Assembly: GCF_016097555.1 (NCBI RefSeq)
Contig: NC_054704.1
Span: forward strand, 92,447,653 to 92,511,652
Direction of reading: 5' to 3'
DNA length: 64,000 nucleotides
From: Gigantopelta aegis
Taxonomy: Eukaryota; Mollusca; Gastropoda; Neomphalida; Peltospiridae
Positions 3,553 through 63,962 of this stretch are shown here, in pieces. Below the pieces are notes generated by a model. It did not search any database, was not told the origin of the DNA, and saw only the letters and a program-made list of their open reading frames with translations. A program made the translations under genes and the position numbers. Each line of letters starts with the position of its first letter. The first letter of the stretch is position 1.

Positions 3553-5243
3553 TGGGAACAAAAGGAAGTGAAGACAAGCTGATGTTCATTCTTATCCCAG
3601 GAATCACTGTTCCCTTGGCCTTGACCTTGCTTCTGGCCCTTGTGTGTTTCTGTCAAAACCGCAACAAGCGTAATGGTGTCAAAGGAAAATCAAGCAACAG
3701 ACAGGTTGGCCAGCCCGTGGAAATGAGCCCCCTCAACCCAAAACCCAACTCCCGTGCCCGTGAATTTGCAATGACGAACATACGATTCCTTCAGGAGTTG
3801 GGCGAAGGTGCATTTGGGAAGGTGTACAAAGGGGAGCTCATTGGGCTGTACGCGGAAAACACGGTCACCAAAGTGGCGATAAAAACATTGAAGGAGAACG
3901 CACAGCCGAAGATCCAGAATGACTTCCGCCGTGAGGTCGACATGATGTCTGAGATGAGACACCCCAACATTGTGTGTCTGCTGGGCGTGTGCATGAAGCA
4001 GGATCCCATGTGCATGTTGTTCGAGTACATGACTCACGGTGACCTGCACGAGTACCTCCTTGTGCACTCGCCGCACTCAGACATTACGTGCAAGGACGAC
4101 GAGGGCGGTGGCGGCGGGGGGAAGATCCTGGAGTATCCCGAGATGCTGGTGATCGCGCAGCAGATTGCCGCTGGGATGGAATACCTGGCCAGTCACCACT
4201 TTGTTCACCGCGACCTCGCCGCTCGCAACGTCCTCGTTGGAGACAACCTCACGGTCAAGATTTCCGACTTTGGTCTTTCTCGCGATGTATATTCGTCTGA
4301 TTATTACAGAGTTCAGAGCAAGAGTCTGTTGCCCGTGCGCTGGATGCCTCCAGAGTCGATCATGTATGGCAAGTTCACAACAGACAGTGATGTGTGGGCG
4401 TTCGGGGTCGTCCTGTGGGAGATTTTCAACTACGGCCTCCAGCCTTACTTCGGTTACTCGAACCAGGAGGTGATCGAAATGATCCGCTCCCGACAGATCC
4501 TGGCTTGCCCCGAGGAATGCCCGGCTCGAATGTATGGTCTGATGGTGGAGTGCTGGCACGAGACCCCAACCCGACGGCCATCATTCCGTGAGATCAACTC
4601 CCGACTGCGAGCCTGGAAGGGGGAGATGATGTCGGGACAGAATCACCACTGGAGCATCTCCCAGAGCCAGTCGGCCCACTCGAGCAGCACGCACCAGAGC
4701 GGCCAGAGCCAGCCGAGTCACCATAGCAGCACCGGTCCCAGCAACACGACAGCAGTGACGGGCCTCACCGGCAGCAGCAACACCTCAGATCCCATCCAGT
4801 CGTACCCACCTCCGGCTCAGCCCATGCCAAACTACACGATGGCATCCACCCATGGCTACAACGCCAACCAGCCACCGCTGGTGCCCATGCCCATTCTCGG
4901 AATACAGAGGCAGCACGGGCTGATGGGGCCTCCTCCGTACAATAACCTGAACAGTCAGAACAGCCATATAAACGGTCCGTCGAAAATCTCGCCTGCTGGG
5001 TCAGTAGCCAGTTCGAAATCATCCAACAGTGCCACGTCGCAGAGCTCCTCTGGGATCGGGCCGCTGCCGGTGATCAAGAATGTGCCGGGAAACCACCACG
5101 TGCCTCAGAGCCAGCAGAACCACCAATACAATGCGGCGAACAATGTCAGCAACGGCATGCCCACTGTGGCAGAGTGCAATCGCTTCAATAACTTTATGTC
5201 ACAAAATGCTTACATTCCTGAACCAAGGACTTCAGAAATCTGA
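3553..5243 (+). CDS. ROR: ROR-family receptor tyrosine kinase, last coding exon
   Basis: Membrane receptor kinase of the ROR family (Wnt5a-type ligands, planar polarity and neuronal development in animals). The exon opens after TTTTTTCAG at 3552 in phase 1. Counting codons from 3525, residues 19-43 form a hydrophobic membrane helix followed by basic stop-transfer residues (RNKR). A tyrosine kinase domain covers about 86-366: glycine loop GEGAFGKV (93-100), VAIK lysine at 120, HRDLAARN (228-235), DFG (248-250), and an activation loop with paired tyrosines (SSDYYRVQS) and a RWMPPES segment. A tail of about 200 residues, rich in Ser, Gln, Asn and Pro, ends at TGA 5241-5243. A Gly-rich insert (DDEGGGGGGK) lies in the kinase. 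The Ig, Frizzled and Kringle exons are outside the window. The activation loop resembles invertebrate Ror more than MuSK or Trk, so the family call is firm. The ATG at 3525 lies in the intron and is not the start. Confidence 0.93.
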
Positions 5244-7529
5244 GCAGCTGACAAAGAGTAAATCAAATGTTGCCATACTTGTGAATGTAAGTGTATATAG
5301 CTGTTTTGTTATGAATGTATGTGGGGGAGAGAAAAAAAACACACACATAAAATGTTATTACGCCCACTGCACATGAAAACATGAAACAAGTGTTCATCAC
5401 AGTTAGTCCAGTCCTAAAACTAATGATCGTTTTCTCATTCAAATGTATTTTCTTTTTGCATCCTTGTTTTTAAAATGGGGAGCAAAAATTATTTATACAG
5501 ATATTTTTGTTCTTAGTGAAAATCCATCAACTTTTAACAATATTTTATCAAAGATTACAATTAATAACTGAATTTCGAGTCCAAGTTCGACTAAGTACAA
5601 GTATTACAGAATATGAAGATTGCTTCAGAAATTTCAGGACAAGACGAAACATTTATTTAGGCTGGACAAGACAAAAGGATATACTAAACCTGCAGATCAT
5701 TGTTCTTTCATGTTGCCATGATCAATCTTTATTGTAACTTGGTGACCTGTGAGGAACACGTGAGAGACTGGTGTCCTCAGATCTGCCCATTTGGTTAGAG
5801 CTGTGCTAAACTTACTTCAGATTTCAGATACTTGTGTCAAACTGTGTCCTAAGACATGAGTGGAGAGTGGAAACTACTAAGTAGATTGGTCAAGAGAACC
5901 TAAAACAATTCAGTGCATGGTGCTCATCAAATGAAGGAGGAATTTACTCATCAAATAAAGGAGGAATTTACTCAAAGAAGACCTGATTTGTAAAAGAATT
6001 TTTGACTTGTACACCACAAGTTTGTGATTATAAAAAGCTAAATGGATTTGAAGGTGTAAATGTGCAAATAAGTTACTTGCAGGAGTAGAATAGATGAGGA
6101 AGTATTAAAACTATCTACTGTTACAGTTATATATATAATATTTATAAACTGTATTATACGTGACATGCCTTGTGTATCTATTAAGTCTGGTGTTATGAAG
6201 GCATCTTTATGGAACTGAAGGACAAAAGAGCTATGAGCAATATTACACGTTTATAATTACCATAAATTCTTGATTAAGATGTTCACCTAAGATTCAGATT
6301 GACAAGAAACAAAAAGAGCAGAGATATATCTATTATCAGTAAGCCATACCATATACCTGTAACACACCATGATTACGGTTACACACCACCATTAATTACT
6401 CCATGCAGTTCAATTTTTCTGTCAGAAAATATTCTGTAAAAAATATAACACTATCGAATGTGTCATGTGACTACTAATTTTAGGGAGTGCTCTCAACTGA
6501 CAGTACTGTATGAACAATGAACCTAGGTCGACCACAAACATTTCCAGTTAGCAACCCTCATGCCAGAGCACAGCCTCGTGTTGCTGTTATACAAGTGGCA
6601 CTATATACCACTTACACAGTTGTTATCAGTTAGTACTACATATAACAAGTAACTTCAAACCAAACTTCAAACCAATGAGTTATTTAAATACTACCGAGGT
6701 CAACCTACTTATAATCATCACAGAAAGATTTCAAACGGCATATCAGAATTTTTTAGTATTTTTTTATGAGGAACTATTTCCAAAGCCGGACTGTTATATT
6801 AAGCTGTTATAACAAGTAATGACATGACAAATTATGGTGTGTTGCCTTAAACTAAATCAAAGCATATATTTGATTAGAAGTACAGGTAATGGCTTGAATT
6901 TTGTCTCTTTTTACTATCATTATTTTAAAGTACAAAACTTTAAAAGAAAACAAAAGCAGTATCTATTACCATGAAGCATATTTTAGGAGACAACCAAACA
7001 CAAATGACATAAAATCAAAGAGTCTGACATCATTTTAGCAGGAACGAGTCTTTTGGGCTTGCCTAAAATGTAAAAATTGAGTGCTGAAAAGTTTCTGTCC
7101 AGGAAAAAAAAGGGAGCTAACTAAATGAGTTGTTCACTTGCATAATTTTCAGGTTAAGTCCTAAATCAAGAATTTATAGTATATTTTATATTTAGTGGTA
7201 CGGTTACCATGGTGTAGTGCTTGCAATATGTGATACCATAGAGAACCTAACATAGTGTATAATCAGTATCAGTATTTCACATATATCTATGTTAATATGG
7301 CCACATTATGTCTGACAATAGCCTTAATTAGCTAGGCTTTCGAAAATAGTTTTACTTTTGTTTTTAATCATGTCATTCGATATGTTCATATTCATAATTT
7401 AATCAGTCATGATATGGGTTGTTATGACAGGGTATAATCCAGTCTTGTAAACTATGTTGATATTTAAATTAATATCTGATGGGAGTTCATTACACAGTAA
7501 GAATATCTTTGAAATATTTCAGAATCATT

Positions 7530-7533
<4 letters not shown>

Positions 7534-7594
<61 letters not shown>
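7534..7594. repeat. (TA)n(TG)n microsatellite
   Basis: About 42 bases of alternating TA pass directly into alternating TG, a compound dinucleotide repeat. Confidence 0.95.
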
Positions 7595-7595
<1 letters not shown>

Positions 7596-8394
7596 AATTC
7601 TTTTGTTTGACTATGAATAATTCTCAAGATATTTACATTTTTCTTTTGTAAAAACAAAACTTGCATAAAATTTATTAAGAAATATTTTCAAAATAAACAA
7701 CTGATTAGAATACAATTTGTAAAGAACATTTGAGATTTTGTTGAAGCATACACAATGTCATGTGTTAGACTAAGTAATTTTTGCTTGCAACAAGAAGAAC
7801 ATAAGCAAAAATGAAGTCACTCTTATAACTTCTGAATGACATACACACATCATTTGGTAATGTAAAAAGTAATAGTACTTTATGAGTAGTATGTGCTTCT
7901 TCAGGACGTCATGGTATCTTAAAGATGTTTTCTTCATCTTGACATATGTGAAATAGCTCATCATTTTCACATCTTCTGACAATATTCCTTAAAATACAAA
8001 ATCTATAATCAAGTTAAATTTTGTACCAGTTCACAGAATTTATTTTAAATGTGAGTAACATCATGGTATAATTGTAAGACTGATTGATTTGAAAATATTT
8101 TATTTATTAAGTGTATCCCATGATTAACAAGAAAGTGCCAACCCATGTCTGGCTCATCACAGATAAACCACAATACATTTTAACTACAAGTGCTATCATA
8201 AACACTTGTTAGTTTGTACAATATTATATATGTATGGAGTGATGTTTACTTTTATAGCAGTACTGTGCAATTGAAAAACCAATAGCAATAATAAAGGTAA
8301 TCTTTAAACATTTTTTAAGAAAGATTTAAGCTTCTTGAATTAATAAAACTATATCAAGCATTTCAAATCAACATTGCCTAGTAGTTTTTTAAAA

Positions 8395-8530
8395 GTTTGT
8401 TTTGTTGAATGACACCACTAGAGCACATTGATTTATTAATCTTCTGCTATTGGATGTCAAACATTTGGTAATTTTTACATATAGTCTTGGAGAGGAAACC
8501 TGCTACATTTTTCTGCATGTGTATGGCATT
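8395..8530 (-). mobile_element. SINE family B, partial
   Basis: Contains the family B tail in reverse: GACACCACTAGAGCACATTG, then the block TTGGATGTCAAACATTTGGT and a diverged GGAAACCTGCTACA. The tRNA-like head is missing, so the copy is truncated. Full copies are at 34276-34601 and 54010-54316. Confidence 0.75.
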
Positions 8531-9404
8531 GAAGTCTAGAACACATTTCGGCCCAATTCAGAGAACATTTTGTTTTCAAACTCTTGATTAGTGATATTTC
8601 TTGTCAATTTAATAATTGATTAGCAACTACTGTTTAATGTTTTAAAATTGCATAGCGATCTCTGCAACTTATGTAGCGAATTGCAACGCAAATCTAAACA
8701 AAATGTTCTCTGTCCATAGTTAAATTCTGTCCATTTTGTCAAGTTCAAACACTCGTGTATATTAATTATATTTATATATATGTAATTAGTTGGTTTTTTA
8801 GTTTTACAGTGCTGCTTTAATGGTTTACATCTAATTTTATTGTTAAGTATTCAGTTAGGAAAAAAGAAGAACTTGATTGTATTGCACTCGTTGAAATGTG
8901 ATAAGATACTGACAGTATACTGTTGTCTATGTTAATGCACATATTATTGTGTTGTGTCTTTATATTTGTTGTCTATTTATTCTTATTCAAGTTAAACTTG
9001 AGTGCCTCAGAGCATAATACATGCATTTTGTAGTAATGCTCTTTTGTATACAGATGTATATAGCTTATATTTTGTTTTGTTTTCTGTTTTGTTCAAGACA
9101 TGAAATTATATAATACTGTACAAATAGATAGAGTTACAGTTTTTTCCTATCATATTACTTGTGACAATCATAAAAAAACATTGAATCATTTTTTTTCCCA
9201 TGGCAAATTCAAGTAACTTTTTTTCTCATTCATTATTGTTAGTAAAGTCCAATCTTTCACATTTATAGTATAATTAAAATCCACAAAGAGACACTGATAT
9301 AGATAAGAATCGAAAAAAAAAGTATTAATGTGGAAAGTAGTACTAGGACATTAGCATTCTACTCTTTTTCTTACAAAGTATACAGGTATGTAGACATATA
9401 CAAC

Positions 9405-9582
9405 ATATATACACAAACACACATCTACACACATATATATATATATACACACACACACACATCTACACACATACACACACACACACCTACACACACACAC
9501 ATCTACACACACACATATCTGCACACACACACACACACAACTACACACACACACACCTACACACACACTCCTACATACACAC

Positions 9583-9619
<37 letters not shown>

Positions 9620-9628
9620 CACACACAC
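9405..9628. repeat. (CA)n-rich microsatellite
   Basis: CACACA runs are interrupted regularly by CTA and TATATA. Open frames on both strands here consist of His/Thr or Cys/Val repeats and are not genes. Confidence 0.95.
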
Positions 9629-9720
9629 ATTCAAACCAAATGTTTAAAACCAAAACTAATTATATTGACATAAACTGTTTATTAATTCCCACCTACAAAA
9701 ATCAACAGAAATAAAACTGT

Positions 9721-12600
9721 AGAATACAAGTCTCATGTTGTACACATAATTTCTTATTGGGTTCCATGTTGTACATTTTGTACTTAAAATGGACTGAAAC
9801 ATTTTTGAGATTTACATACCAATGGCATATTACATTTGTGCCTTTTGTTTAACATGTTACTAGCAGCATTTGTTGTTTTTAATGTAGATGTAAAAGTGCC
9901 TATGCCTACTTTTCATTTTATGTTGTCTGCTATGAATTAGTAAGTGATCAGTTTTTTATTTAAAAAATATAAATGTTAATTTTTAATCTTCCAGGAAGTT
10001 TTTTCTTAAATGTTTCTTTCAAAATTGTTGTTCATGGTAATTTGGGAATTTGAATTGCTTTTTTAACTTCTAAAAATTATAATCTATTTATTGTTTCATC
10101 ATATTGAATGTTATAAGAACTGCACCAGTATTTCTATACTATTTTATCAAGTGATATTAAGAAAAACATGTAATAGTTTTTAATATTCAGGTGTTGATTT
10201 TCTCTTTTTAATAAGATAAAAAGTACACCTATATGCATGCCTTTTAGTAAATACAAAATAATGTATTTAAAACCATTTTTTCCTTTACTAATTACTTGAA
10301 TACATTTATACTTGACATTAAATATAGTAAAACTGGCATGAATTAAAACATTAAAAATTTAATCTGTATATATCTTTATCTTATCATTATTATTTAAGTG
10401 ATTTTCTTTTTTCATTCTGATTTTTTAAAGTACAAATAACAAAGTCTGATAAATTAAGCATATAATTAATGATGGTTAGCTTATTTGGTTCTTAATATGT
10501 AAATAATATATTAAACAACCTAATTGTTGATTAACACCTATGCATACATCTTACTGTGATTAATATTCGTAAGCCAATTAAAATATTTTTTTGTGCTTTT
10601 TTGTTTTTCGCAAGTATAGTCATGCCATCCTGAAACTTCTTGCTTTATTATGATAAATACCAAGGCAATGTCTTTCTAAATTTACTACTAGTGTCTTAAA
10701 GCCATGTTCACACTGTAACCCAGTAATTTAAAGGATATTCAAAGGACAGGTTCAAGTTCTTTTTTACTGTTGTAAAGTGTTTTTATATATATTTATATTT
10801 ATGTAAAACAAAAAGTTGAAATTTCTGGCTTAAATACTAATTTCTACACATTATTTGTGTTTATCGTCATTATAGCTTATAACGGTTTAACTAAATTTAG
10901 TTTCCATATTTCTGAGAGAGAAAAAATGTGCTAACACTTTTTAGAGGTTTTGATTTGTGAATTTATAAAACCGTGAAAATACCTGTTAAATCCACAGATT
11001 AAAAATTTCAAACTGATCCTATTTTCAGTTAAAGCAAGCACTCTATGGCATTATTAAATGCTTGCTAAGGCATACCAAAATTATGGAGTAACTTTGTAAT
11101 TTGGAATATGATTTAAACGGTAATTGTTCACATTCCATCTTGTAACATTTTGGTTGGTCAATTTATGTAGTCGACCAACATCCATTTATATATTGTTAAA
11201 TTAAATTCTTTAAGTTAAAAAATAAAAATGTTTTCACTATATAACACGACCATATCACACTAGACATTGTGTCAAACAGATGTTTTTTAAAATTCATTTT
11301 TAATTGCTTATTATTTCTAAAGCTAATAAATATATTTCAACCACTAACATACATTTAATATGCAAATGAATATATTAATATCAGAGTTATTAGTAAGTAC
11401 TGATCTACAAAATGCTCTTCTTAAAGTGTTATTTGTAGCGCTGCATTCTGTGTTACATTTCTTAAGAGTGTACAATTGTAAAATGTTTACTTTTATTAAT
11501 ATGGCACCCCTTTAATATTCTAGACATATATAGCCAAAAATCTACAGTTTTAATACCGGTAATTAAACTTTGGCACTATATTGGATGTATACATTTTCAG
11601 TATGCTTTTATACACGAACCACTGCCATGTTTTCAAATAAGGCTTCATTATTTCATTGCATGGAAACTGATTCACATCAAACTGTGATTAAAGTGCTCAT
11701 TTTTGTAGCTGGATCTAGACTGTAATATAGAGGATGGGGGTGGGGGAGTAAGGAGGGAGCAATATAAACTACCAGGTACTTAAAACCTGAGTTACCAATA
11801 TAAACAATGGTACTAAAAAATATCATTAGTAATACTGGAATAAGGTATTATTATTGTTTTTCTTTCCAGCTTATATTAACTTCTTTTTTAAAATAAATTT
11901 TGCAGCACATATACGGTAAAACAGTAGTGGATTTTTAAAAAATAGGGTCAATTACTTATCTTATCATTTTTCTGAAAGCACAAATGCTTATCAAATATAT
12001 TCATATTTTTAATTGTCCATTTGATTTATATTAACAGTAATTAATTTCAAACTGGGGGTGGGAATCCACATGTTCCAGCCACATAGTTAAGCATGTCTTA
12101 AACAGCTACCTTATTTAATATAATGAAAAGTGGCTTTTAACATGGTACAACATTAAATTGGAAAATCAGTACAACAGCATTTAAAAATATATATATATTT
12201 ATTAATTAAAGTGTTTCTGCTTTCAGGAGAGACTGGGGGTGTTTCATCCTTAACCCTCCCCTTATTCCTACCTGTTAGGCTTCTTCCTGTTGTGGATAGT
12301 GGATAGAGTCTGACATTTTAACTTTGTTTATTGTGAAGATGTACGGTACTGGTGCTATATCTTGTTACTGCTTCGCCGACGACCACCATTCGTCTGTGAG
12401 CCGCATGTACAGTATGTAATTTATGTATTGCAGTATATGCATATCGGAGCAGTCTGTGGCATGTTGATTAAATACCTTGCTGATATTGTCAATAAAATAT
12501 GGAAAACACACGTCTCGACTTTCAGTGGTCTGTTCAAAGGAAAGGAATGTTTGTTTGTTGGTCGACACCTCAGCTCATTGGTGAATCACACAGTAGCTAT
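9721..12600. other. Intergenic AT-rich sequence, no feature seen
   Basis: No coding potential, RNA gene or clear repeat was recognised between the CA tract and the SINE cluster near 12.6-13.3 kb. A short TA-rich run at 12187-12204 and a few poly-T tracts are the only simple repeats noticed. Confidence 0.4.
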
Positions 12601-12625
12601 TAGGTCTTTCAACAGTGTACTAAAA

Positions 12626-12822
12626 GTTGTTTTGGTTAACGACACCACTTGAGCACATTAATTCATTAATCATCGGCCATATGATGGACAGGTAGGACAG
12701 CATATACCACGGCCATTGATATACCAGTAACAGGGAACTGATTGGGATGAAAGAAATGAAATGGGTCTAACGAGGATGTTTGATCCTACACCTCATGTAC
12801 GTCAGGCGAGCGCTCTACTCAC
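12626..12822 (-). mobile_element. SINE family B, internally deleted
   Basis: Family B tail (GACACCACTTGAGCACATTA), a shortened middle, then the promoter-proximal part (CATACCACGGCC, GATATACCAGTAAC) and a diverged tRNA-like head with GGCGAGCGCTCTAC. The segment between the tail and the head-side block is missing. Confidence 0.7.
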
Positions 12823-12863
12823 TGAGCTGTTCTGATATTTGTCATTTGGGCTATTCCTATCAG

Positions 12864-13104
12864 TTTCATTTCATTTCAACTTATTTTCGTGCTTATATCC
12901 AATTAAGGTTCAAGCACACTGTCCTGGGCACACACCTTAGATGTCTGGCTGTCTGTCCTGGACAGTGTGTTAGTTGTTAATTCTGAGTGGTTAATGAGAA
13001 AGAAGAGGGTGTAGTGGTCTTACATCTACCCATTGAGTCATTAAAATGCAGTCTGGGTGGGAGCCTTATGTCCGATGGCTTAACCACGACACCAACGAGG
13101 CCAG
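12864..13104 (-). mobile_element. SINE family A copy 1 of a tandem pair
   Basis: Reads in reverse from the tail (TTCGTGCTTATATCCAATTA) through GTCCTGGGCACACACC to a tRNA-derived head ending near 13104 (GGCTTAACCACGACACC). The middle of the head is deleted, so the box B region is absent. The motif ATTCCTATCA precedes the copy and follows it. Confidence 0.8.
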
Positions 13105-13112
13105 TATTCCTA

Positions 13113-13344
13113 TCATTTCATTTTATTTTAACTTATTTTTCGTGCTTATATCCAGTTAAGGTTCAAGCACGCTGTCTTGGGCACACACCTCAGCTATCTG
13201 GGCTGTGAGAAGAAGGTGTAGTGGTCTTACACCTACCCACTGAGTTGTTAAAACTCGCTCTGGGTGAGAGCCAGTACCAGGCTGTGAACCCTGTACCTAC
13301 CAGCCTTATGTCTGATGGCTTAACCACGACACCACCAAGGCTGG
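13113..13344 (-). mobile_element. SINE family A copy 2 of a tandem pair
   Basis: A second copy in the same orientation directly abuts copy 1, separated by ATTCCTATCA, which recurs after 13344. It keeps the head part missing from copy 1 (GCTGTGAACCCTGTACC, the reverse of a box-B-like element), so the copies are not a recent duplication of one another. Confidence 0.8.
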
Positions 13345-13625
13345 TATTCCTATCAAATAGCTGCCAAGTTCTTTAAGGGCCATAACTCTGTGAGAAATGG
13401 ACAAATCACCAAGAAAGTCAAACTTGATCTGTGACAGTACATGATAAACCTACATGTGTATACACAAAATGCAAGCATTGTAAAAACAAAGTCTGGAAAA
13501 CTATATGTGGGACAGATGGACAGACAGTATGTCAGAGATGAAACCTGCAGTCCCCTGCGATTGGACCAGAAGGGTTCTTCTTCCAAGTACTGATAGTGAT
13601 ATGGGGGGGGGGGGGGGGGGAATGG

Positions 13626-14172
13626 ATCCTTTATTTTAGGACCCATCACACCTCAGATGAGTGCTACATCACTGAGGAACAACACGGTCATTTTTTACAA
13701 TGAACTGCTAACATGAACAGCTTTTAAGATGAATGGCCATACAGCTGGACATAACTAGAAGAGTTCTTTCTGAAGTGAAGAATCAAAAAACCATCACAAA
13801 CTCAAACTATACAAAATGTTTTATCTTAACAAAGACTTTAGACCACCAATGATGTGGTTTACTCATACTGCTAATGCTAAAATTAAAAAATAAATCAGCT
13901 GAAAGCTGTCAAGTTCATGTAAAGTCAATGTCAAGTTCCTTTATTTTATATACAATGAGTGCTACATCACTGAGGAACAACACGGTATTTTTACAATGAA
14001 TGCTACATGAACAGCTTTTAAGATGAAATACAGGGAATAACTAGAAGAGTTCTTTCTAAAGTGAAGAATCAAAAAACCACACAAACTCAAACTATACTTT
14101 TTATCTTAACAAAGACTTTAGACTCCAATGAGTGGTTTACTCATACTAAAAATTAAAAAATAAATCAGCAAA
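13626..14172. repeat. Two-copy direct repeat, second copy with many small losses
   Basis: Copy 1 (about 13626-13908) and copy 2 (about 13938-14172) share long identical blocks such as CACTGAGGAACAACACGG and GAACAGCTTTTAAGATGAA. Copy 2 lacks at least eight scattered segments of one to eight bases that copy 1 has. No gene lies here. A poly-G run (13602-13620) precedes the pair. Confidence 0.85.
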
Positions 14173-14850
14173 GCTAAATATTCTACCTTAGTGAATTACA
14201 ATGTGAAAAGGGAAATAATAATTTCATGCAGCTCTGAGACTTAAAACAATTATTTAAGAAACATGTAATAATAAATAACGCAAAACATTCTGACAAATAA
14301 ATGTATTTATTTTTAGCAAATACAAAAGTATTTTGTAAACATTCTAAAACTACAAAAACTCAAAAAGAGCACCTTGCTCAAAAAACAGTTTTTTCATTGC
14401 ATAAACTGAAAAACTGTCAAAAAATAAAACAATTTTAATAAGATAATTATTTTTATTAAACATGGAAATATAATGAAAATGCAAATAGAAAATGTGCCTA
14501 CTTGGTGGCAAGAAATACATTTTATATAATTCAATCTTTGATGAGCTTAAAAGTACCGTATACAACTATGTTTACAGTATACACAAGCCCATAATAATGT
14601 TTTGGTGATAATTATATTTGAGAGGGTGCACAATTTTATTATTTAAAGAACTAAATCAGTGATTTAATCAATAACAAAAGAATTGTGTAATGACTAATAA
14701 TGATTACACAAACTATTCTTATCAAAGAGAAGCCGGTTGTCTTTGACATGCAAGCAACACCTTGTAATTTCTAACAGGAAAAATCACATATAGGCCTATT
14801 ATAGGCTGCCTATCCACTGAACGGAATTAATCACTTGACCCATAGAGTTA

Positions 14851-15062
14851 AAGTGGGTTTTTTAAACAATACAACTAGAGCACATTGATTATTAATCATC
14901 AGCTATTGGATGTCAAACATTTGGTAATTCTGACATATAGACTAAACCTGCTACATTTTTCCATTAGTAGCAAGGGATATTTTATAGGCACCATCCCACA
15001 GACAGGATACTGTGGAGAATTGATTGTGATGTGGAAAATCCCCGTGACCAATAACACTACAG
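14851..15062 (-). mobile_element. SINE family B, partial
   Basis: Reverse copy with the tail (ACTAGAGCACATTG, TTGGATGTCAAACATTTGGT), a shortened ACCTGCTACATTTTTCCATT block, and GCACCATCCCACAGACAGGA. It ends before the tRNA-like head. Confidence 0.8.
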
Positions 15063-16065
15063 GTGAATAGAATAATCTCCCATCGAACTAGATCCCATTA
15101 TGGACGAAATCACCACATTGTTTTAATTAACACAGTACCACTGAAGTTCAGTAGAAGTCAAAAAGCTATAGTATACAATATCTAGGTCAGCACACCAATA
15201 TTCTATGATTTTGAACTGAATTATGGGCAAAAAAAACAACATTTTACACTGCATAGTAAATATTTATAAATGCAATATAAACTTACTTGTAATTCATATC
15301 TTTCCATGGTACGGAAATTAGTAAATGACAAATACAAAAAAGAAATACAAAACACTAAGAAGAGTTGGGGTTTTGTTTGCATATAAAAGATTAAATATTC
15401 AACTATTTTCAGAAAATATTTCATTATTTCATTTTCAAAACTATTTACCTGATTCCACTTACTACATCCAGATTGCATACTATTACTACAAACATCTTAT
15501 GAAATTTGGTATTTCAGTAATATGTACTGAACAATATTACAGAATAAGAAAAATAATAAACAAAAACTTAACAACACAAAACCAATAGAACATATTACTA
15601 GTAAACAAAAAAGACTACTCTAAACAAAATATAAATGACACACTAAACAAAACAGCTTGGACAAAACAATATATTAAGGAATATTTTACATTTTACGCAG
15701 TTTATAACTAAAGACTTTAATAGTGGTGCAAGAAACTTAATATGTGTACATGAACTCAGTAACCCACATTGTTGTCATTTTCTAGTTTTTGATACTGTTA
15801 TACCAGATATATCATACTAGATTCATTTATAAATTTAAAAAATCATTAATTTATTAATATCATGTTAAAATAAATAAATTCCATAGTAATAGCTTGTAAT
15901 GTCAGTTAACACGAGAGCAAGAATTGACAAAGTGGTATAAAGTGATAAATAGCGTTATGTTTTCAATGTTTGTGACAACCTAGAAAAGCATCACAAAGAT
16001 TCTTGCACACAAGTCTTTATATGCGAGTCATAGTAATTTGTACAACAACATATTAGTACACACCT

Positions 16066-16168
16066 GTTACAGGTAACATAAATCATACATGTTACAGGTA
16101 ACATAAATCATACATGTTACAGGTAACATAAATCATACATGTTACAGGTAACATAAATCATACATGTC
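16066..16168. repeat. 25 bp tandem repeat, 4 units
   Basis: Four almost identical units built on ACAGGTAACATAAATCATAC followed by ATGTT. Confidence 0.95.
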
Positions 16169-18568: not shown

Positions 18569-18695
18569 TTACCAGAACTTTTTTATGTGACAAAAGCGCA
18601 GCATTCCTCCACATATTCCACATATAGGAAATGACTTGCTGTCTTTCTTGGGGATGCTCCAACACTTGATGCAGCGGACACGATATTTGCGATAC
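18569..18695 (-). CDS. ZGLP1: ZGLP1-like exon 5 (second Cys motif and stop)
   Basis: Acceptor TTGTTGTAG ends at 18696. One base completes Arg243, then 41 residues from YRKYRVRC to the C-terminal KKFW, with stop TAA at 18569-18571. It carries C251, C254, C268 and C271, a second zinc-ligand set directly after the GATA finger. Confidence 0.9.
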
Positions 18696-21600
18696 CTACA
18701 ACAAAGATAACGTTTTGCAATGGGTACATTTATTATGAACATATTAAAATGGTGTTAGTTCACCAATATTTTTCAGTTTGTGATGCTACCAGTCCTGTCA
18801 CTGGTGATAAATGTGACAGTGCTTGCTGTCATTAAATGTTCTTCAGGTAAAGACGCTTTTTGTCATGTCAGAAACTAGCTACTTAACCCCAGAGTTTTTT
18901 CATTTAAGGATTAAAACACTGCATGACATTGACAGTTTCAGTCACATATGCTACTATTGTTGCAGTGGTGTACCTAGGGTATGACAGGTATGGCACATGC
19001 CCTGGGTGCCACATGAAGTGGGGGATGGGGAGCGCAACTAAGTAGTTTTCATTAAAGTCAGACAAGCCATCCTGGGAAAGTGAAAAAAGAATTTTCTTCA
19101 GATATATGGTGCAATTTCAGTGCTTGCCATAGGCGCTATTTTCCGTAGATACGCCACTGTATTGTTATTTCAGTGCTTGCCATAGGCACTATTTTCCGTA
19201 GATACGCCACTGTATTGTCATTTCAGTGCTTGCCATAGGCGCTATTTTCCGTAGATACGCCACTGTATTGTCATTTCAGTGCTTGCCATAGGCGCTATTT
19301 TCCGTAGATACGCCACTGTATTGTCATTTCAGTGCTTGCCATAGGCTCTATTTTCCGTAGATACGCCACTGTATTGTCATTTCAGTGCTTGCCATAGGCG
19401 CTATTTTCAGTAGATACGCCACTGTATTGTCATTTCAGTGCTTACCATAGGCTCTATTTTCCGTAGATACGCCACTGTATTGTTATTTCAGTGCTTACCA
19501 TAGGCTCTATTTTCCGTAGATACGCCACTGTATAGTTATTTCAGTGCTTGCCATAGGCTCTATTTTCAGTAGATACGCCACTGTATTGTTATTTCAGTGC
19601 TTGCCATAGGCTCTATTTTCCGTAGATACGCCACTGTATTGTTATTTCAGTGCTTGCCATAGGCTCTATTTTCCGTAGATACGCCACTGTATTGTCATTT
19701 CAGTGCTTACCATAGGCTCTATTTTCAGTAGATACGCCACTGTATTGTCATTTCAGTGCTTACCATAGGCTCTATTTTCCGTAGATACGCCACTGTATTG
19801 TCATTTCAGTGCTTGCCATAGGCGCTATTTTCAGTAGATACGCCACTGTATTGTTATTTCAGTGCTTGCCATAGGCGCTATTTTCAGTAGATACGCCACT
19901 GTATTGTCATTTCAGTGCTTGCCATAGGCGCTATTTTCAGTAGATACGCCACTGTATTGTCATTTCAGTGCTTGCCATAGGCGCTATTTTCAGTAGATAC
20001 GCCACTGTATTGTCATTTCAGTGCTTGCCATAGGCTCTATTTTCCGTAGATACGCCACTGTATTGTCATTTCAGTGCTTGCCATAGGCTCTATTTTCCGT
20101 AGATACGCCACTGTATTGTTATTTCAGTGCTTGCCATAGGCTCTATTTTCCGTAGATACGCCACTGTATTGTTATTTCAGTGCTTACCATAGGCTCTATT
20201 TTCCGTAGATACGCCACTGTATTGTTATTTCAGTGCTTACCATAGGCTCTATTTTCCGTAAATACGCCACTGTATTGTTATTTCAGGGCTAGCTCTGGCA
20301 GTCGCCAAATTCGCCAATTGCGATTTTTAAAAACAATTGGCAAATTTTATTTTAAGTTGGCAAAATACTTTTACTACATTTTATTAGAAAATAACTGGTT
20401 TTCTGCCATTTTTGAAGTTTAATAAATAATTTGGCAAAACTTTGTGTTAACCCAGGGCCAGCCCTGTATTTGATTTGATGGTATACACCCTATAAGTAAT
20501 TAGAAAATATGAAAACATAAAGTTGGCCATGGCAGGTGGCTGTCTAATAGTTCTATTTTTAATCTCTTTATAAGGTGCTCTCTTATGACAGGTAGCTGAT
20601 TGGTAGCTCTAGGTGATGGTACTTTTTGCAAAATTAAGCAAAAGTTCTAGATGTTTCTTCAAGTGATAGCAATTCACAGAACAGGACAAATGTTTAAGGT
20701 GTCCTTTATAGATGGGTGGTTGGTTAATAGAGGTGATGGTACTTTCTACAAAATCAAGCAAACATTCTTGACATTTCTTCAAGTTATAGCATGTAAACCA
20801 CAACAATGTTGGAAAATGTCCTTTAAAGAAAGGCAGTACTTTCTACAAAATTAAGCAAAAGTTCTATATATGTTTCTTCAAGTTAAAAACACAGAACACT
20901 AAGAATAAATGTTGGGAGGTGTCCTTTAAATATGGGTGGCTGGTTAATAGAGGTAAAGGTACTTTTTATTAAATCAAGTAAAACACAAAAACAAATCTTA
21001 ACATTTCTTTAAGTTACAAAGTCCAACTGAACACAAATGCTGAAATGTGTGCTTTAGAGACAAAATATATTGCGAGCATTGATAACATCACCAGAGCATT
21101 TGAATGTTAAACAATTGGTAATCATGACAGTCTTCAGAGGAACCCTAAAACATTTTCCCACTTTGCTACAGTTTGCTGGAGATGATATTTCAAAATCTTA
21201 GGTAACAGGAACTCAGTTCACATGAGTTTTACTTAGGTAACCGAATAACGTGAATATAGTTCTCGTAATAGACGAGTTAGGCCTATCTAATCCTAAAACA
21301 CTTGAACTACAGTTCTGTGCTACATTGGTGGTTAATATGTATTTAAAAACATAAACTGGTTTTCACTTTCATTACTGATATATGGTACTTTTAATTTTAG
21401 AATGTAATTGTTCATCACGTAACTGATTGACGGTTCTCGTGATTTTAATGTTGCATAACAACAGTGCCCAGGTTTGCTTACCTTATCCCACAGGCGTTAC
21501 AGAGAGGAGTTCCATCTTCAGCATCTCTCCACAGTGGAGTCCGTCGAGTGCTGCACGATGCACATGCTTTAGCTGGAAATATATATCATTAAAATTATAA

Positions 21601-29427: not shown

Positions 29428-32400
29428 GTTTGTGTTTAAAACTACCATTATTACACTTCACAGTTGCAGTATGTAACACTGTCAATCATAATTTTTAATA
29501 TTTATCATGTTAAGTTCATTAGAGTTTTCATTACACTTTAATTATGTATTCTTTTACTTTTTATATATAGAAATTAAAAGTATATGACGTAATTGTTTTA
29601 TATAATTTATTACATTGTAAAGGTGCGAATTATTATCATTAGCAAAACTGGTATTTTTTATACATGCCCATATATTTCAAAATATACAATGTAGGTATTA
29701 TGGTATGGTGTAGTTCACATCAACACCGAAGAGGTGTGTTTCGTCATGTTCGATTGTGTGCATTTCTTTTACGACTGTTGTGTTTTGGTCCTTAATCTCT
29801 GTCCTGGGCAGATGTAAGCCAGCTGAGGTGTGTTCCCAGGATAGCATGCTTTAACTTTAATGAGATAAGCAGAAAAATAATTTTGAACAAAATTAAAGTA
29901 GGAAGTTGGATTTGCAATACTTTTTCCAAAAATAACCTTTATAGGGAATTATTTAAAAACAGCCTTTTAAAGGTTTTTTCACTGCTAGTGTCTTATTTTC
30001 AACCAATATTAATTATTTCTCTACAGTTGATCACTGGCATCAGTGATGTAGTAGTTTAAGCCATCGGACTAAAAGTTGGTGATAGATACTGGGTTTGCAC
30101 CCAAGTACCAGCTCCCACCCAGAGTGAATTAGCATCTCGGGTAGGTGTAACTTCTCTCTCACTACCCACTAACATTAACCCACTGTCCTGGACAAACAGC
30201 CCAGATAGCTGAAGTGTGTGCCCAGGACAGTGTGCATGAACCTTAATTAGATATTAGCACAGAAGGAAATTTAATTACAGTTGATAATATTTTCCCCAGT
30301 ACTCACAAGGCATATGGTGTTGCTGATTGCCGGCAAACAAATAGATCTAAGGCCTAATTCACAAAGCTCTCTTAGGCTCTACTAGACAACAGCATTGCAC
30401 TGCGGTATCGCAAAGTTGTAAGAGTTTAGTGAATTAGGTCCCTGGACAATTATTCTGCTCAGCAAATGTCATTATATGATTTCTATTCTAGGGTATTGAA
30501 GCTCATCCACTAAAAGATGACAATGTGTTTGAATGGGTTGCAAAGATCCAAGGACTGAAAGATAGCTTATGGGAAGGTAAAATGACTTTATAATGTATTT
30601 TTGGTATGGTGTATGTACAGGATATAGTTTTAATGTGGTTGTCTCACAGCATGAGTTACCTATGTGTTCTTATTATCTTTAACAATGTCTGATAATGTTG
30701 TGCTTTGTTAAGTGGTGCCACACGACAGAATGAACTAGATCAAATTGTAATTCAGACAAAATAGAGCAGAATCTGTATTAAAAAGTAATGAAGTTAAAAC
30801 AAATTCAAATTAAGAAATATGATAATAAAATTTACACTAATCAACAATTACATTTTATGTAGTCTTTTTTCTGAAGGAGTGCATAAATTATTTATTAAAT
30901 TTGATTAAAGCTTTATTGTTATTTTCAGGAGGAATCTTTCACTTATATATAAAATTTGATGAACACTACAGCTATCGTCCTCCAGAAATATGTTTTCACA
31001 CGGTTCCATTTCATCCGAATGGTAAGAACATTACATGTGTTAAAGTTAAGATTAATAGCAGCTCATTTGTACTGTTAAAAGTATTATTGTTACAGTTATA
31101 TTTTAATATAATTTTTAATTTTATGCACCTAATTTCTCGTCTTCTCCAGCACCTTGTCCGTCCTTCCATCCATTCATTCGTCCGACAATTCGTCCATTCA
31201 TCTGTCTGTATATCATTCTGTGTATCCATCTGTCTGTCCATCCATTCGTCCGTCCGTCCATCCATCCATCCATCCATCCATCCATCCATCCATCCACCCA
31301 CCCACCCACCCACTGTCCCATCCTTCAGACTATTTTAAAGTATTAGCATGCCAACATATGCATAATGTTTGAACATAAACAAATATTTTAGAATTGGATT
31401 ATAGGTGGATCACAATCATTGTTCACTATTCAGCATTTATTGTGCATTTTATTTTCAGTTGACATGGTAACAGGTCGACCGTGTATTGATTTCTTGGATG
31501 ACTGTGACAAATGGAATGAGTCAAACAGAATATATATGATACTGGTCACAATTCAGGTTAGATTTTGAAATGTTGCTAAGATTTAAGATTTTATATTTTA
31601 TGGAAATATTATCTGTAGATCAAACCAAAGTCATAGTTGTGTCATATTTGTCATAAACACCCAATCTTTCATTAAACCAGGAAATATACTACTGACACGA
31701 AGTTGATAGCCCTAAATAGGTTGTAACACATTGAGAATCAGTGATGGTCATCTAGACATGAAATGACATTGGCTCTTGTCAGATATGCTAGCATAGGCTG
31801 AGACAAAGTATCGGTAAATTCTGTAATGTTGGTTTCTGTTATTTTACACTTGAAAGTTATATCTTTGAATTACGAATGATAATTACTGACTTGGCAACCA
31901 GTCAGATTTTGTTTGCCAATGTTAGCAATTGATTTACTAATCATTAGCTATTGGATGTCAAAAATGTGGTAATTCTGACACATAGTCATCAGAGGAAACC
32001 CTCCAAATGTTTTCATTAGCGGCAAGGAATATTTATATGCACTTTCCCATAGACAGGACACAACATACCACAGCCTTTGTTATACCAGTTGTGGTGCACT
32101 GCATGGAATATGAAAAAATTCTAAGTACCCCAGCTTGTCCTCTATCAACGAGCTAAATGTTACTGAACACAGGTTCGTTTATTGGTGCACCAGTGGGTCA
32201 GGACACCAAAACAACATGGTTCTAAATGTTGCTGAACACAGGTTCGTTTATTGGTGCACCAGTGGGTCAGGACACCAAAACAACATGGTTCTAAATGTTG
32301 CTGAACACAGGTTCGTTTATTGGTGCACCAGTGGGTCAGGACACCTAAACAACATGGTTCTAAATGTTGCTGAACACAGGTTCGTTTATTGGTGCAGCAG

Positions 32401-35400
32401 TGTGTCAGGACACCTAAACAACATGGTTCTAAATGTTGCTGAACACAGGTTCGTTTATTGGTGCAGCAGTGTGTCAGGACACCTAAACAACATGGTTCTA
32501 AATGTTGCTGAACACAGGTTCGTTTATTGGTGCACCAATAGGTCAGGACACCTAAACAACATGGTTCTAAATGTTGCTGAACACAGGTTCGTTTATTGGT
32601 GCAGCAGTGTGTCAGGACACCTAAACAACATGGTTCTAAATGTTGCTGAACACAGGTTCGTTTATTGGTGCAGCAGTGTGTCTGGACACCTAAACAACAT
32701 GGTTCTAAATGTTGCTGAACACAGGTTCGTTTATTGGTGCAGCAGTGTGTCAGGACACCTAAACAACATGGTTCTAAATGTTGCTGAACACAGGTTCGTT
32801 TATTGGTGCACCAATAGGTCAGGACACCTAAACAACATGGTTCTAAATGTTGCTGAACACAGGTTCGTTTATTGGTGCAGCAGTGTGTCTGGACACCTAA
32901 ACAACATGGTTCTAAATGTTGCTGAACACAGGTTCGTTTATTGGTGCAGCAGTGTGTCAGGACACCTAAACAACATGGTTCTAAATGTTGCTGAACACAG
33001 GTTCGTTTATTGGTGCACCAATAGGTCAGGACACCTAAACAACATGGTTCTAAATGTTGCTGAACACAGGTTCGTTTATTGGTGCAGCAGTGTGTCAGGA
33101 CACCTAAACAACATGGTTCTAAATGTTGCTGAACACAGGTTCGTTTATTGGTGCAGCAGTGTGTCTGGACACCTAAACAACATGGTTCTAAATGTTGCTG
33201 AACACAGGTTCGTTTATTGGTGCAGCAGTGTGTCTGGACACCTAAACAACATGGTTCTAAATGTTGCTGAACACAGGTTCGTTTATTGGTGCAGCAGTGT
33301 GTCTGGACACCTAAACAACATGGTTCTAAATGTTGCTGAACACAGGTTCGTTTATTGGTGCAGCAGTGTGTCAGGACACCTAAACAACATGGTTCTAAAT
33401 GTTGCTGAACACAGGTTCGTTTATTGGTGCAGCAGTGTGTCTGGACACCTAAACAACATGGTTCTAAATGTTGCTGAACACAGGTTCGTTTATTGGTGCA
33501 GCAGTGTGTCAGGACACCTAAACAACATGGTTCTAAATGTTGCTGAACACAGGTTCGTTTATTGGTGCAGCAGTGTGTCAGGACACCTAAACAACATGGT
33601 TCTAAATGTTGCTGAACACAGGTTCGTTTATTGGTGCAGCAGTGTGTCTGGACACCTAAACAACATGGTTCTAAATGTTGCTGAACACAGGTTCGTTTAT
33701 TGGTGCAGCAGTGTGTCAGGACACCTAAACAACATGGTTCTAAATGTTGCTGAACACAGGTTCGTTTATTGGTGCACCAATAGGTCAGGACACCTAAACA
33801 ACATGGTTCTAAATGTTGCTGAACACAGGTTCGTTTATTGGTGCAGCAGTGTGTCAGGACACCTAAACAACATGGTTCTAAATGTTGCTGAACACAGGTT
33901 CGTTTATTGGTGCAGCAATGGGTCAGGACACCTAAACGACATGGTTCTAAATGTTGCTGAACACAGGTTCGTTTATTGGTGCACCAGTGTGTCAGGACAC
34001 CTAAACAACATGGTTCTAAATGTGTCAACAAACATCCCTTTCCTACCATATAAAACACTACAATGTTTACAGAAAAACTGTTGATCAGTAGATGTACAAA
34101 GTGATCACAAAATATATAATAGACTGAAGTATAAATCAGAATAATTATATGATAGACTGAAGTACAAACCAATCTCGTTATGTGATAGACTGAAGTTCTA
34201 ATCAGAATAACTGTGTGATAGACTGAAGTCCTAATCAGAATAATTGTGATAGACTGAAGTACAAATCAGATTAAAGAAAGGCATGTTTTATTTAACGATA
34301 CACTCAACACATTTTATTTACAGTTGTATGGCATCAGACATATGGTTAAGGACCACACAGATATTGAGAGAGGAAACCCGCTGTCACCACTTCATGGGCT
34401 ACTCTTTCCGATTAGCAGCAAGAGATCTTTTATATGCCCCATTCCAAAGACAGGGTAGTACATACCACAGCCTTTGATATACCAGTTGTGGTGCACTGGC
34501 TGGAACGAAAAATAGCCCAATGGGCCCACCGACGGGGATCGATCCCACACTGACCGCGCATTGAGCGAACGCTGTACCACTGGGCTACATCCCACCCCAA
34601 AACAGACTAATTATACACTGATCTGTAAACTATATTTCAGAATTTGTTAAGTAATCCATCTGCGAATAATCCGGTAAACGTGGAGGCAGCGGAGTTGATG
34701 TGTCGTATACCCGATGTTTACAAGCAGGTCGTCCAGGAGTGTATTGCTGCAAGTCAAAGAGTTGAAGGTATGTTGGTGTGAAGCCATTTCTACAAAACAA
34801 AACATGCTTGTTTGCTGTGATCATCATTTTAATAGTGGGTCTGATGGTTTTCAGTTGAACTATAATTTATATGTGCTATTTTTAAAAAGAAAGGGGGAAA
34901 AGGTTAAAAGAAGAAATGTGGTAAAAAAGAAAGAAAAAAGAAGTGATTTTTGAGTACATGTATTTGTTTTAAATCTTTCATACAGTATATTTTTTAAATT
35001 GTATATTAGGTCTTTAGCTCTGCTATGACATTGGTTACAAAGCTTTTCTAATACTGATTTGTCCGGGGTTCATTTGTTGTCCATCCATCGTCTTTCTGTC
35101 AACATTTTCTTTGAAGTCTATTTTCTCCTAGAGTTTTCATTGGATTGTTCGAAAATGTGGTACAGTGATCCCCTGGGGCACCCTCCAAAAAAAAGATATT
35201 TTAGAATATTATAATTTTTATTGAATTAAAAAAACATTATTTTAAAAGTATCATCTCCATTGGTTTTGATTGGATTCTGAAACTTGGTACAGTGATCCTC
35301 AGGGTCAGTCAGCACAAACTATATATATAAAATATATATAAGTGAAATATATGTAACTATAATCAAGGAAAAATTAATTGTTTTCTAGAAATAATTTATT

Positions 35401-38400
35401 GGTCATTTGTAAACATTCTGAGATGCTTTGCACAGTTGTGTCTTAATGTTATCATCTTTGTCAAATTTCAACCATTTTACAAACTTGGCAGTTGGTTTGA
35501 GACCTTTTTATTTAGTACACCGGAACTTGTTTTTGTAAATATATGTACATAGTTGCAAACAATTTAAAATTAACTTAACTTGCTGTATCTAAAAGGAGTC
35601 GACTATTTTTGTTTGTTTAGCTGGGCTTGCTCCTCATTCCATTACGAAGGCAAAGGTCATGTTTTCTCCTGAGATTAAGAAAAAAACACAACTGGAGCCC
35701 GACTCCCAGCCAGAGCGGCCTCGCATTACCAAGATAACATTTGATGACTACTTCACAACGTGGTATGGAATAGCCACGTCCAAACCACAGAATGATTCCA
35801 AAAACCCATGTACGTATCTTTCACGTGAAGTAATATTGTACCAACAGGTAAACCAATGCAACAAAGTTTGATCATTCCAGATGTTATGATTTCCAGGGTG
35901 ATAAATAGAGATTATTATAGGAGTTTGTGTGTCGTACTGATTTTACGAAATGAGTGTCGGGATTTTTGTATTGCCCAAGCGAGAGCAAGAGTAATACATG
36001 AATACTGACACAAGTTTCATAAAATCAGTACAACTCACACGCAAGTGTAATAATTTCCAGGGCGACCAACCTAATGGAAATATATTTCTGGTATTTTCAT
36101 TTTTAAGTGCGCGAACGCCCCTTTCAAAGCAATAGTTTAAGGCACACGAAAACGCCATTTTCAAAAATATAACAAACAATTTAAACAGCGCCATATTTGA
36201 CATATTTAAAAAATAACAACAACCAAAGACAAACAATAAAAAAATATATATATTTATTGGAATGTTATGTATTCAATAATAAAAGTTTAAATCAATCCAT
36301 ATAAGTGGCAGAATTTTTCTGCTTCCTTTTTAAGCATATGGCTGGTCTAGTAAATATATTCATCAGTGTAAATAAAAGTTACTATACCTAGTACAGCAAT
36401 TAACAGCATCGCATGCACGCACACACGCGCACACACACAGACAGACCAAACATCACCACAAAAAAACCCCTGAAAGCCCCACTTTATTAGCAAATAGTGT
36501 AGTACAATTTCACTCCCACCAACAGATTAGTAATAAAGTGACAAACTTGGGACCAATGTTTTTATGTAGGTACATTACCACATTTGCACTATTTCATCAG
36601 TGGGGTCGACCTAATTTGTGGTTAACTGAATCTGGGACGAAACGTCTGGTACCCACATTAAGACTGGCTATCGTTCTGCATTACACTTATATTACTATTA
36701 GCGTAGCTCTTTTCGCGGCAAAATCTAACAATGGTTTGTAAAAATTTACATTTTTTATAGTTTTACTTACTTGAATAAAACAAGATCGGTAGGTATATTA
36801 ATTAATTAATATTAATGTCATGAATGTGTCACAGATTACTGGTAGACAAATGGTATTTAGTGAAATGTTGCACTTGAAAGCATACGAAAAGAATTTAAGA
36901 AGAGAATTATGGATCCGTTTCTTTTGTTTTCGTACGATCTCAAGTATTCTGTTATATGTTCAGGTTTTTAGACACCGTGGCGAAGTTGCATGCATCGCCA
37001 TAGAACCGATGTCTGCCCCGTAGTAATTACTGTATGATATTTGAAATATCTTTAAAATGAATACATAAACTACATGGCAAGTAAGACAAATTTCATACAT
37101 GGCTTCAGTTTACTCGATTGTCAAAAACATTTTCATTGGTCGGCTGTTGACAAATACAGCCAATAGACAAACGTCTTAGTAATAGCACAAAACAGTCGAT
37201 AATACCAAGTTGAGGTTGCAGTGGAGAATGCAGAATGATAAACTCTTGTTTAATAAACTTGGGATTTAAAAATATAGAAAATTAAAAATATATTTAGAAA
37301 TGGTTGCTTTCAAAAAAAATAATGATAGCGAATTTGGAAAAAATTCTGGATATTTGCCATTAATTCCGGAATTCCGGATATGGGTTAAAAAATTCCGGAT
37401 TTTAAGGAAAATTCCGGAAAGTTGGTAGCCCTGAATTTCTTTATTATCCATATTATTATTGTTGTTTTCTTTATGAATAACAAGACCCAACTCAAAATGT
37501 TTCAGCCACAACTAGAAGGAGACGACGAAATGACGTCATATTTTATATGCACAGTCTGAGCTAGGACTGGAGAAGCAATGTCATGTTATGATGTCACTTT
37601 CCAAAATTATGTCATTACACTTGTTATTACACATATTCTTCGTATGATTATAATTAACTTGGTTATGTTGAACTATATAGATAATAACATCACATTTAGT
37701 TCAGTTCTATTATGCTCGTGGAACCAGTAGCATGGGACTCTTGAGCAAAATCTTATGAGCAGTCTATGATGAAGCAGTCTTAGTTAAGCTAAAGTTAACA
37801 TTTGTTGTGTTTAACAACACCACTAGAGCATATTGATTAATTAATCATCGGCTATTAGATGTCAGATATTTGATAATTCTGACATGTAGTCTTCAGAGGA
37901 AACCCGCTACATTTTTCCATTAGCATCGATAGGACTATGACATCAAAAGACTTTTATGATTCTTAACATAATATTAGATCTTTCATCAATTCCACAACAC
38001 AACTAAGCAAAAGATGCCATAAATTTATTAAATTCGTAGAAGATGAAATAGATAAAGTAACTGTGAGGAACATCACCCATCACAGAGATAATGCACAGAG
38101 CTAACACGAGGGAAGGTGATGTATATTTAATCAGTAGTCACAGTCCGTTGAACAGAAATGCAGTGTAGAGGATAATAAACATGTTACCAATTATTATCAA
38201 ATGTATGTCCTGAATGAAATAGTGTTAGTGAGTGGCAAAAAAAGGACATAAATTTGGTTTTTAAAACTTCAAAAACAAAGTTCTACTGGTTTTGTAAACA
38301 CAAACTCTTTAAACTATGTGACATCATTTTGTGTTTGTGCCAAATCATCATAATGACATATTTAGTACCGACGAGGTCATGGTTTGTAAACATCAAATCA

Positions 38401-52404: not shown

Positions 52405-52887
52405 ACAATGAAACTACAGTTGATTTAGTATTCATCAGCTATTGAATGGCAAACATTTGTTACTTTCTTTACCCATATTCTTAGACAATGAAACTACAGT
52501 TGATTTAGTATTCATCAGCTATTGAATGGCAAACATTTGTTACTTTCTTTACCCATATTCTTAGACAATGAAACTACACTTGATTTAGTATTCATCAGCT
52601 ATTGAATGGCAAACATTTGTTACTTTCTTTACCCATATTCTTAGACAATGAAACTACACTTGATTTAGTATTCATCACCTATTGAATGGCAAACATTTGT
52701 TACTTTCTTTACCCATATTCTTAGACAATGAAACTACAGTTGATTTAGTATTCATCACCTATTGAATGGCAAACATTTGTTACTTTCTTTACCCATATTC
52801 TTAGACAATGAAACTACACTTGATTTAGTATTCATCACCTATTGAATGGCAAACATTTGTTACTTTCTTTACCCATATTCTTAGACA
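52405..52887 (-). repeat. 80 bp tandem repeat inside a SINE family B copy, 6 units
   Basis: Each unit has ACAATGAAACTACAGTTGAT, TTAGTATTCATCAGCTATTG, AATGGCAAACATTTGTTACT and ACCCATATTCTTAG. This is the tail part of family B (ATCATCGGCTATTGGATGTC then AAACATTTGGTAATTC) repeated in exact 80-base steps. The remaining SINE body (TATATGCACTTTCAGCAGGA, CATACCACGAC) follows at 52890-53000. Confidence 0.85.
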
Positions 52888-53000
52888 AAACTGGCAGCAA
52901 TGGATATTTTATATGCACTTTCAGCAGGACAGCACATACCACGACATCTGATAAACCAGTCATGGGGCACTGATTGGGACAGGTGAAAAAAACTAAACAG
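52888..53000 (-). mobile_element. SINE family B body flanking the 80 bp array
   Basis: GGCAGCAATGGATATTTTAT, GCACTTTCAGCAGGACAGCA and GGGGCACTGATTGGGACAGG follow the order of a family B body after its tail. Head absent. Confidence 0.6.
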
Positions 53001-53016
53001 TTGAGGTTTGTGCGCT

Positions 53017-53337
53017 TGACAACATTAAATACTAAAAATAGTTCTAGTGATTCTGCATGGATCCACAAAATGGTGAATATTTGGTTTAGACTCAGCAGTG
53101 TTCAACAACATTAAATACTAAAAATATTGTTCCTATGATTGTGCATGGATCCACAAAATAGACTCAGCAGTGTTCAACAACATTAAATACTAAAAATAGT
53201 TCTAGTGATTGTGCATGGATCCACAAAATGGTGAATATTTGGTTTAGACTCAGCAGTCTTCAACAACATTAAATACTAAAAATATTGTTCCAGTGATTGT
53301 GCATGGATCCACAAAATAGACTTAGCAGTGTTCAACA
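53017..53337. repeat. Higher-order tandem repeat, 86 + 72 bp units, twice
   Basis: CAACATTAAATACTAAAAAT and GTGCATGGATCCACAAAAT recur with alternating spacing of 86, 72 and 86 bases. The long form has an extra TGGTGAATATTTGGTTT. The array lies 110 bases past the FDX2 stop codon, so it is probably in or near its 3' UTR. Confidence 0.85.
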
Positions 53338-53446
53338 AATGTTTGAGAAAGTCACCAGCCCTCACAGAATCGTTGGCTAGTGCCCAAACATTCATCAGCC
53401 GGGACCAAGGGCTAGTGGGTTTGTCGAACGCTGCCATCGGCAAGTA

Positions 53447-63962
<10,516 letters not shown>

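Follow-up and report, generated by a model that had tools for sequence, protein, structure and literature searches.

A single locus of the vent snail Gigantopelta aegis carries homologues of six genes that, in human, we take to be divided between 1p31.3 and 19p13.2. Reading along the forward strand, the order is ROR (+), ZGLP1 (-), UBE2U (+), FDX2 (-), CACHD1 (+) and RAVER (-), with a calponin exon (-) between the last two, and the six genes together span 274 kb. Very probably, this arrangement descends from one ancestral bilaterian block that was doubled in early vertebrates and then divided by complementary gene losses.

The analysis started from a window of 64,000 nucleotides (C6:92447653-92511652). 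Positions are given as the C6 coordinate minus 92447652, with the scale extended outside 1-64000, and on this scale the six genes lie at about -37743 to 236217. We read 95 kb to the left and 170 kb to the right of the window (approximately -95 kb to 234 kb), together with a 601-base piece at approximately 236 kb; a run of N occupies the 5 kb directly right of the window. The sequence searched comprises 1,149,253,464 bases in 5,216 contigs, of which C6 accounts for 102.9 Mb, and the genome is described as 1.15 Gb in 15 pseudo-chromosomes with 21,438 genes (PMC7895826). Orthology was assigned on the basis of best matches to a library of solved structures and to presumed reference sequences.

Gene identities in the window

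The initial annotation had placed ROR (+), ZGLP1 (-), UBE2U (+) and FDX2 (-) in the window, and sequence comparison confirmed all four, with splice sites agreeing for the last three. ROR is represented by its last large exon (3553..5243, +), encoding a transmembrane segment, a kinase domain and a Ser/Thr/Pro-rich tail. Among solved structures, this kinase exon matched ROR1 best (420.8 bits), followed by ROR2 (396.3) and MuSK (331.6). Exons encoding the Ig, Frizzled and kringle domains were found beyond the left edge of the window, between about -37743 and -1629, completing the domain set of a ROR receptor tyrosine kinase and placing the start of the gene well outside the interval first annotated.

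The ZGLP1 homologue lies on the reverse strand. Its GATA-type finger (21482..21572) and its last coding exon, which encodes an atypical second zinc finger and the C terminus (18570..18695), were identified by sequence match and splice sites, and the two exons (21572-21482 and 18695-18570) splice in frame. We take the combination of a GATA-type finger and, after it, an atypical second one to be the hallmark of ZGLP1, with a presumed human sequence as reference. Against this reference, identity was 82% for the first finger, over 34 aligned columns that extend a few residues beyond its exon, and 47% for the second, over 30 columns. Could the gene instead be an ordinary GATA factor? The second finger scored 40.8 bits to this presumed ZGLP1 versus 18.9 to presumed canonical GATA fingers, and of the 10 GATA-finger matches found genome wide, six on C7 and C3 outscored the finger in the window and three scored lower. 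Thus, when checked for better matches to other families, the gene kept its assignment.

No first exon was found for ZGLP1. A neighbouring reverse-strand frame (26616-26233) containing a CWWDPTFKGVTLWF motif is a possible upstream exon; it had no Pfam match and was not counted, because its likely donor site is not directly in phase with the next exon.

For the UBE2U homologue (+), sequence match and splice sites defined four exons covering the E2 fold: one for its N-terminal part (30492..30576), a second (30929..31021), a third with the predicted catalytic cysteine (GRPCIDFLD; 31459..31556) and a fourth reaching the end of the fold (34641..34767). These four splice in frame, and no first exon was found. 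Past the fold, the aligned part of a C-terminal exon lies at about 35689..35808, its ends being approximate, and encodes an extension that human UBE2U is presumed to share. The spliced exons were compared with solved structures, and the best match was 1yrv, which we take to be human UBE2U (121.3 bits, versus 83.3 for the next E2). The gene thus combines an E2 fold, a predicted catalytic cysteine, a best match to 1yrv and the C-terminal extension.

That at least one of these genes has been misidentified, whether through a GATA factor taken for ZGLP1 or through an E2 of another family, is highly improbable. Such an error would be easier to make with orthology assigned by best matches and with a presumed ZGLP1 reference, and in the genome-wide E2 search the UBE2U exon of the window ranked near the bottom of the 63 matches (28.6 bits, with a cut-off of 27). 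Against it stand the preference of the second finger for ZGLP1, the higher-scoring GATA fingers elsewhere in the genome, the margin of 1yrv over every other E2 and the UBE2U-like extension.

FDX2 (-) was recovered as four exons, each identified by sequence match and splice sites: the first exon found (61210..61316), an exon with a cysteine motif that we take to be the 2Fe-2S motif (60404..60491), a third (59780..59832) and the last coding exon with its stop codon (53447..53550). When spliced, they matched ferredoxin-2 best (8rmc, 179.8 bits), ahead of structures labelled 'adrenodoxin-like' (2y5c, 151.5) and 'adrenodoxin homolog' (2mjd, 101.2). Among chains whose label is simply adrenodoxin, none exceeded 78.2 bits except 5uj5 (97.1). 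The gene therefore resembles ferredoxin-2 more than it does adrenodoxin (FDX1). The initial annotation had extended the interval to 63962, an end that was not confirmed: no 5' exon of FDX2 was seen at 62900-64000, and the next 5000 bases are N. A whole-genome search with the Fer2 profile returned 0 matches and missed the FDX2 of the window as well, probably because its exons are short; it is uninformative about other ferredoxins.

Three of the four genes in the window, ZGLP1, UBE2U and FDX2, carry intronic tandem arrays. These comprise a 53-bp array in ZGLP1 (19114-20290), a 69-bp array of 27 copies in UBE2U (32153-34023) and a 67/201-bp array in FDX2 (55415-58882); a further 70-bp array (61410-62889) precedes the most 5' of the FDX2 exons recovered. 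The array in UBE2U can be read as open frames of 656 and 701 aa, one per strand, which are repeat rather than gene.

Flanking members of the block

CACHD1 (+) lies 46-79 kb right of the window, with exons from about 109789 to 143116. One of its exons, searched against solved structures at E values up to 1, matched CACHD1 and nothing else (E 1.6e-18); the remaining exons were assigned by eye.

RAVER (-) follows 139-172 kb right of the window. Its C-terminal motif (202890-202750) is 73% identical to the presumed RAVER1 sequence, RRM exons were found at 229843-229706 and 230793-230530, and the gene reaches to 235984-236217, one RAVER exon matching Raver-1 with an E value of 5e-10. A genome-wide search with the presumed human RAVER1 RRMs yielded 18 matches at E values up to 1, of which the best two fell in this gene (9.4e-10 and 2.0e-8) and the next best was much weaker (5.8e-4). 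A family present in both human regions is thus represented here by one clear best locus.

Of the four flanking genes proposed beforehand (RAVER, JAK, CACHD1 and PGM1), CACHD1 and RAVER were present and in the expected order. No JAK was recognised around the block in the searches described below, and phosphoglucomutase exons, identified at the level of the family, lie 12.9 Mb away.

Between CACHD1 and RAVER, we observed a calponin-repeat exon (155445-155765, -; Pfam 6.1e-16) and a Ser/Glu/Lys-rich open frame of 389 aa (191561-192727, +). The block may thus include calponin as its seventh gene, since a list for the horse TYK2 region names the calponin gene CNN1 together with RAVER1 and ZGLP1 (PMC9526059). 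To the left, down to -95 kb, nothing besides the ROR exons could be recognised as belonging to either human region among frames that were 60 aa or longer and exceeded 40% G+C; Pfam was run on the ROR exons and on two other frames, neither of which gave a convincing match.

Tc1-like DDE transposon copies are scattered through both flanks (-34251, -21983, 96606-97736, 115682-116590 and 166552-167694). The last of these is a frame with matches to DDE_3 and HTH_Tnp_Tc3_2; the other copies were assigned by likeness.

Correspondence with two vertebrate regions

We take the human order at 1p31.3 to be PGM1-ROR1-UBE2U-CACHD1-RAVER2-JAK1 and that at 19p13.2 to be ZGLP1-FDX2-RAVER1-TYK2. If these presumed orders are right, the snail block interleaves the two without breaking either, an outcome shared by 20 of the 720 permutations of six genes when both orders are kept in one direction. 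As at 1p31.3, ROR, UBE2U, CACHD1 and RAVER follow one another, the first three with the same relative strands as presumed for human. Unlike that region, the block includes ZGLP1 and FDX2 and has RAVER on the opposite strand, JAK was not found in it and phosphoglucomutase lies at a distance. The likeness to 19p13.2 is that ZGLP1, FDX2 and RAVER share a strand and follow one another as presumed for human; the difference here is that ROR, UBE2U and CACHD1 are interspersed and that CDC37 and DNMT1 are on other chromosomes. Every one of the six genes has the relative strand presumed for at least one human copy, RAVER agreeing with RAVER1 and not with RAVER2. Since RAVER was kept in both human regions, it ties the two together.

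Published gene lists name several of these neighbours. In eel, the listed surroundings of the leptin receptor gene include ROR1, CACHD1, RAVER2 and JAK1 but not UBE2U (PMC4422726); elsewhere, ZGLP1, FDX1L, RAVER1, ICAM1 and TYK2 appear as local genes of one locus (PMC4811771), and the horse TYK2 region list includes ZGLP1, FDX1L and CNN1 (PMC9526059), the last a parallel to the calponin exon of the snail block. At least seven families are common by name to the eel (PMC4422726) and horse (PMC9526059) lists: KANK, DOCK, ANGPTL, ATG4, RAVER, JAK/TYK2 and PDE4. JAK1 and TYK2 are described as products of the vertebrate genome doublings, with a JAK1/TYK2 intermediate inferred after the first doubling and RAVER1 beside TYK2; on this basis, both human regions belong to the JAK/TYK2 (1/9/19) paralogon (PMC3296744). 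In contrast to that paralogon, the snail block would be an unduplicated counterpart, with JAK not located.

These observations support the initial proposal of an ancestral four-gene block of which vertebrates kept complementary halves: CACHD1 and RAVER extend the block in the expected order, and RAVER is in both human regions. The bilaterian ancestor would have had the block in about its present order. In the lineage of G. aegis, it would have stayed whole, with the identities, order, strands and spacing reported above. Whole-genome doubling, as known from the literature, would have copied it in vertebrates, the copy at human 1p31.3 presumably retaining ROR1, UBE2U, CACHD1 and RAVER2 and that at 19p13.2 ZGLP1, FDX2 and RAVER1. 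Judging by the human positions, each copy would have lost what the other kept, with the exception of RAVER. The block resembles other conserved bilaterian linkages and small gene-order blocks in which old neighbourhoods were kept since the bilaterian ancestor; unlike these, it is also one whose two vertebrate copies retained complementary genes.

Slow decay of gene order within chromosomes may suffice for the survival of such a block. ROR is a Wnt-receptor gene, as is CACHD1, whose product partners with Frizzled/LRP6, and a regulatory reason is therefore possible. It is nevertheless rather unlikely that shared regulation has held order and strand since the bilaterian ancestor, with vertebrate losses sorting the partners onto two chromosomes. 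In that picture, the two Wnt-receptor genes, ROR and CACHD1, would lie around germ-line and housekeeping genes.

No description of the six-gene block was found among the top-ranked literature matches, a search that would miss accounts using other gene names or published in subscription journals. For a human paralogon that has been studied in depth and contains immune kinase genes, the block would serve as a template from before the duplication, and it would make complementary gene loss visible gene by gene and strand by strand. It also lends support to the ZGLP1 and UBE2U assignments in a mollusc. As a clean and readily checkable example of a known process, strengthened by the presence of two of the four flanking genes proposed beforehand, it leaves the picture of vertebrate genome evolution unchanged.

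Expected neighbours and the rest of the chromosome

The block had been suggested to include RAVER and JAK homologues, of which RAVER bore out, with the two best matches in the genome, and JAK was not found nearby. The FERM_F2 profile gave 0 matches in the genome and was equally silent in all 14 control genomes, making it uninformative about JAK. A query with a presumed JAK kinase domain returned at least 134 matches genome wide, with 135 of 429 candidates scored. In 309 kb out of the 329 kb of sequence read, of which 5 kb are N, such a query picked out ROR as the sole kinase, and among the scored candidates no other C6 kinase lay within 2.4 Mb to the right or 12.2 Mb to the left of the block. 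Eight regions were inspected; seven fell in four matched kinase loci, which by eye resemble Trk, MuSK-like, other receptor and Src-type kinases and were rejected as JAK, and the eighth was a RAVER exon. A possible array of loci matching the kinase query was observed at C1:27.56-27.71 Mb.

CDC37 exons were found on C4 (6/6 matches) and DNMT1 on C10 (2/2 matches). Both are near TYK2 in vertebrates, where angptl6-eif3g-dnmt1-s1pr2-cdc37-tyk2-raver1 is described as a conserved syntenic group (PMC6976628). Thus, the surroundings of TYK2 were not all ancestral to the block locus, or they have been broken here. These placements and the failure to find JAK in the block, in an analysis of one invertebrate genome, count in favour of two human neighbourhoods that were separate in the bilaterian ancestor and joined independently in the G. 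aegis line. We nevertheless consider independent joining very improbable. RAVER, present in both human regions, has one clear best locus here, and an interleaving that breaks neither presumed order (20/720) is hard to reach through a secondary merger.

Other families of the two regions share the chromosome at a distance. Three of four PDE4_UCR matches lie at C6:101.3-101.4 Mb, 8.6 Mb from the block; 4 of 12 ATG4 matches at C6:34.36-34.37 Mb, 58 Mb away, the others being on C1 and small contigs; and three of five matches to phosphoglucomutase domain I on C6, including a pair at 79.5 Mb, 12.9 Mb from the block. Their positions are consistent with a common chromosome and not with tight clustering.

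Accordingly, we considered one large ancestral linkage group in which the closeness of the six genes is partly chance within the chromosome and their order is not ancestral. The PDE4, ATG4 and phosphoglucomutase positions fit such a group, and chordate linkage groups are kept in scallop (PMC7269912). Tight packing argues the other way. At the mean density of the 21,438-gene annotation, 5.1 genes of any kind are expected in 274 kb, a span that here, in an undoubled lineage, holds six members of the two human regions. As a rough figure, assuming random placement and with the gene set picked post hoc, the chance of five given single-copy genes lying this near ROR is 2.5e-17 genome wide and still 4.3e-12 for placement within C6. 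A linkage group with chance proximity is therefore quite improbable, and a single ancestral block remains the reading that we prefer.

Elsewhere on the scaffold, at C6:42729340-42730680, we observed a full-length mitochondrial COX1 with 6 TGA codons. By eye, it stays open when read with the invertebrate mitochondrial code, and an ND2-like frame lies close by. Candidate readings are a recent mitochondrial insertion and a scaffolding artefact.
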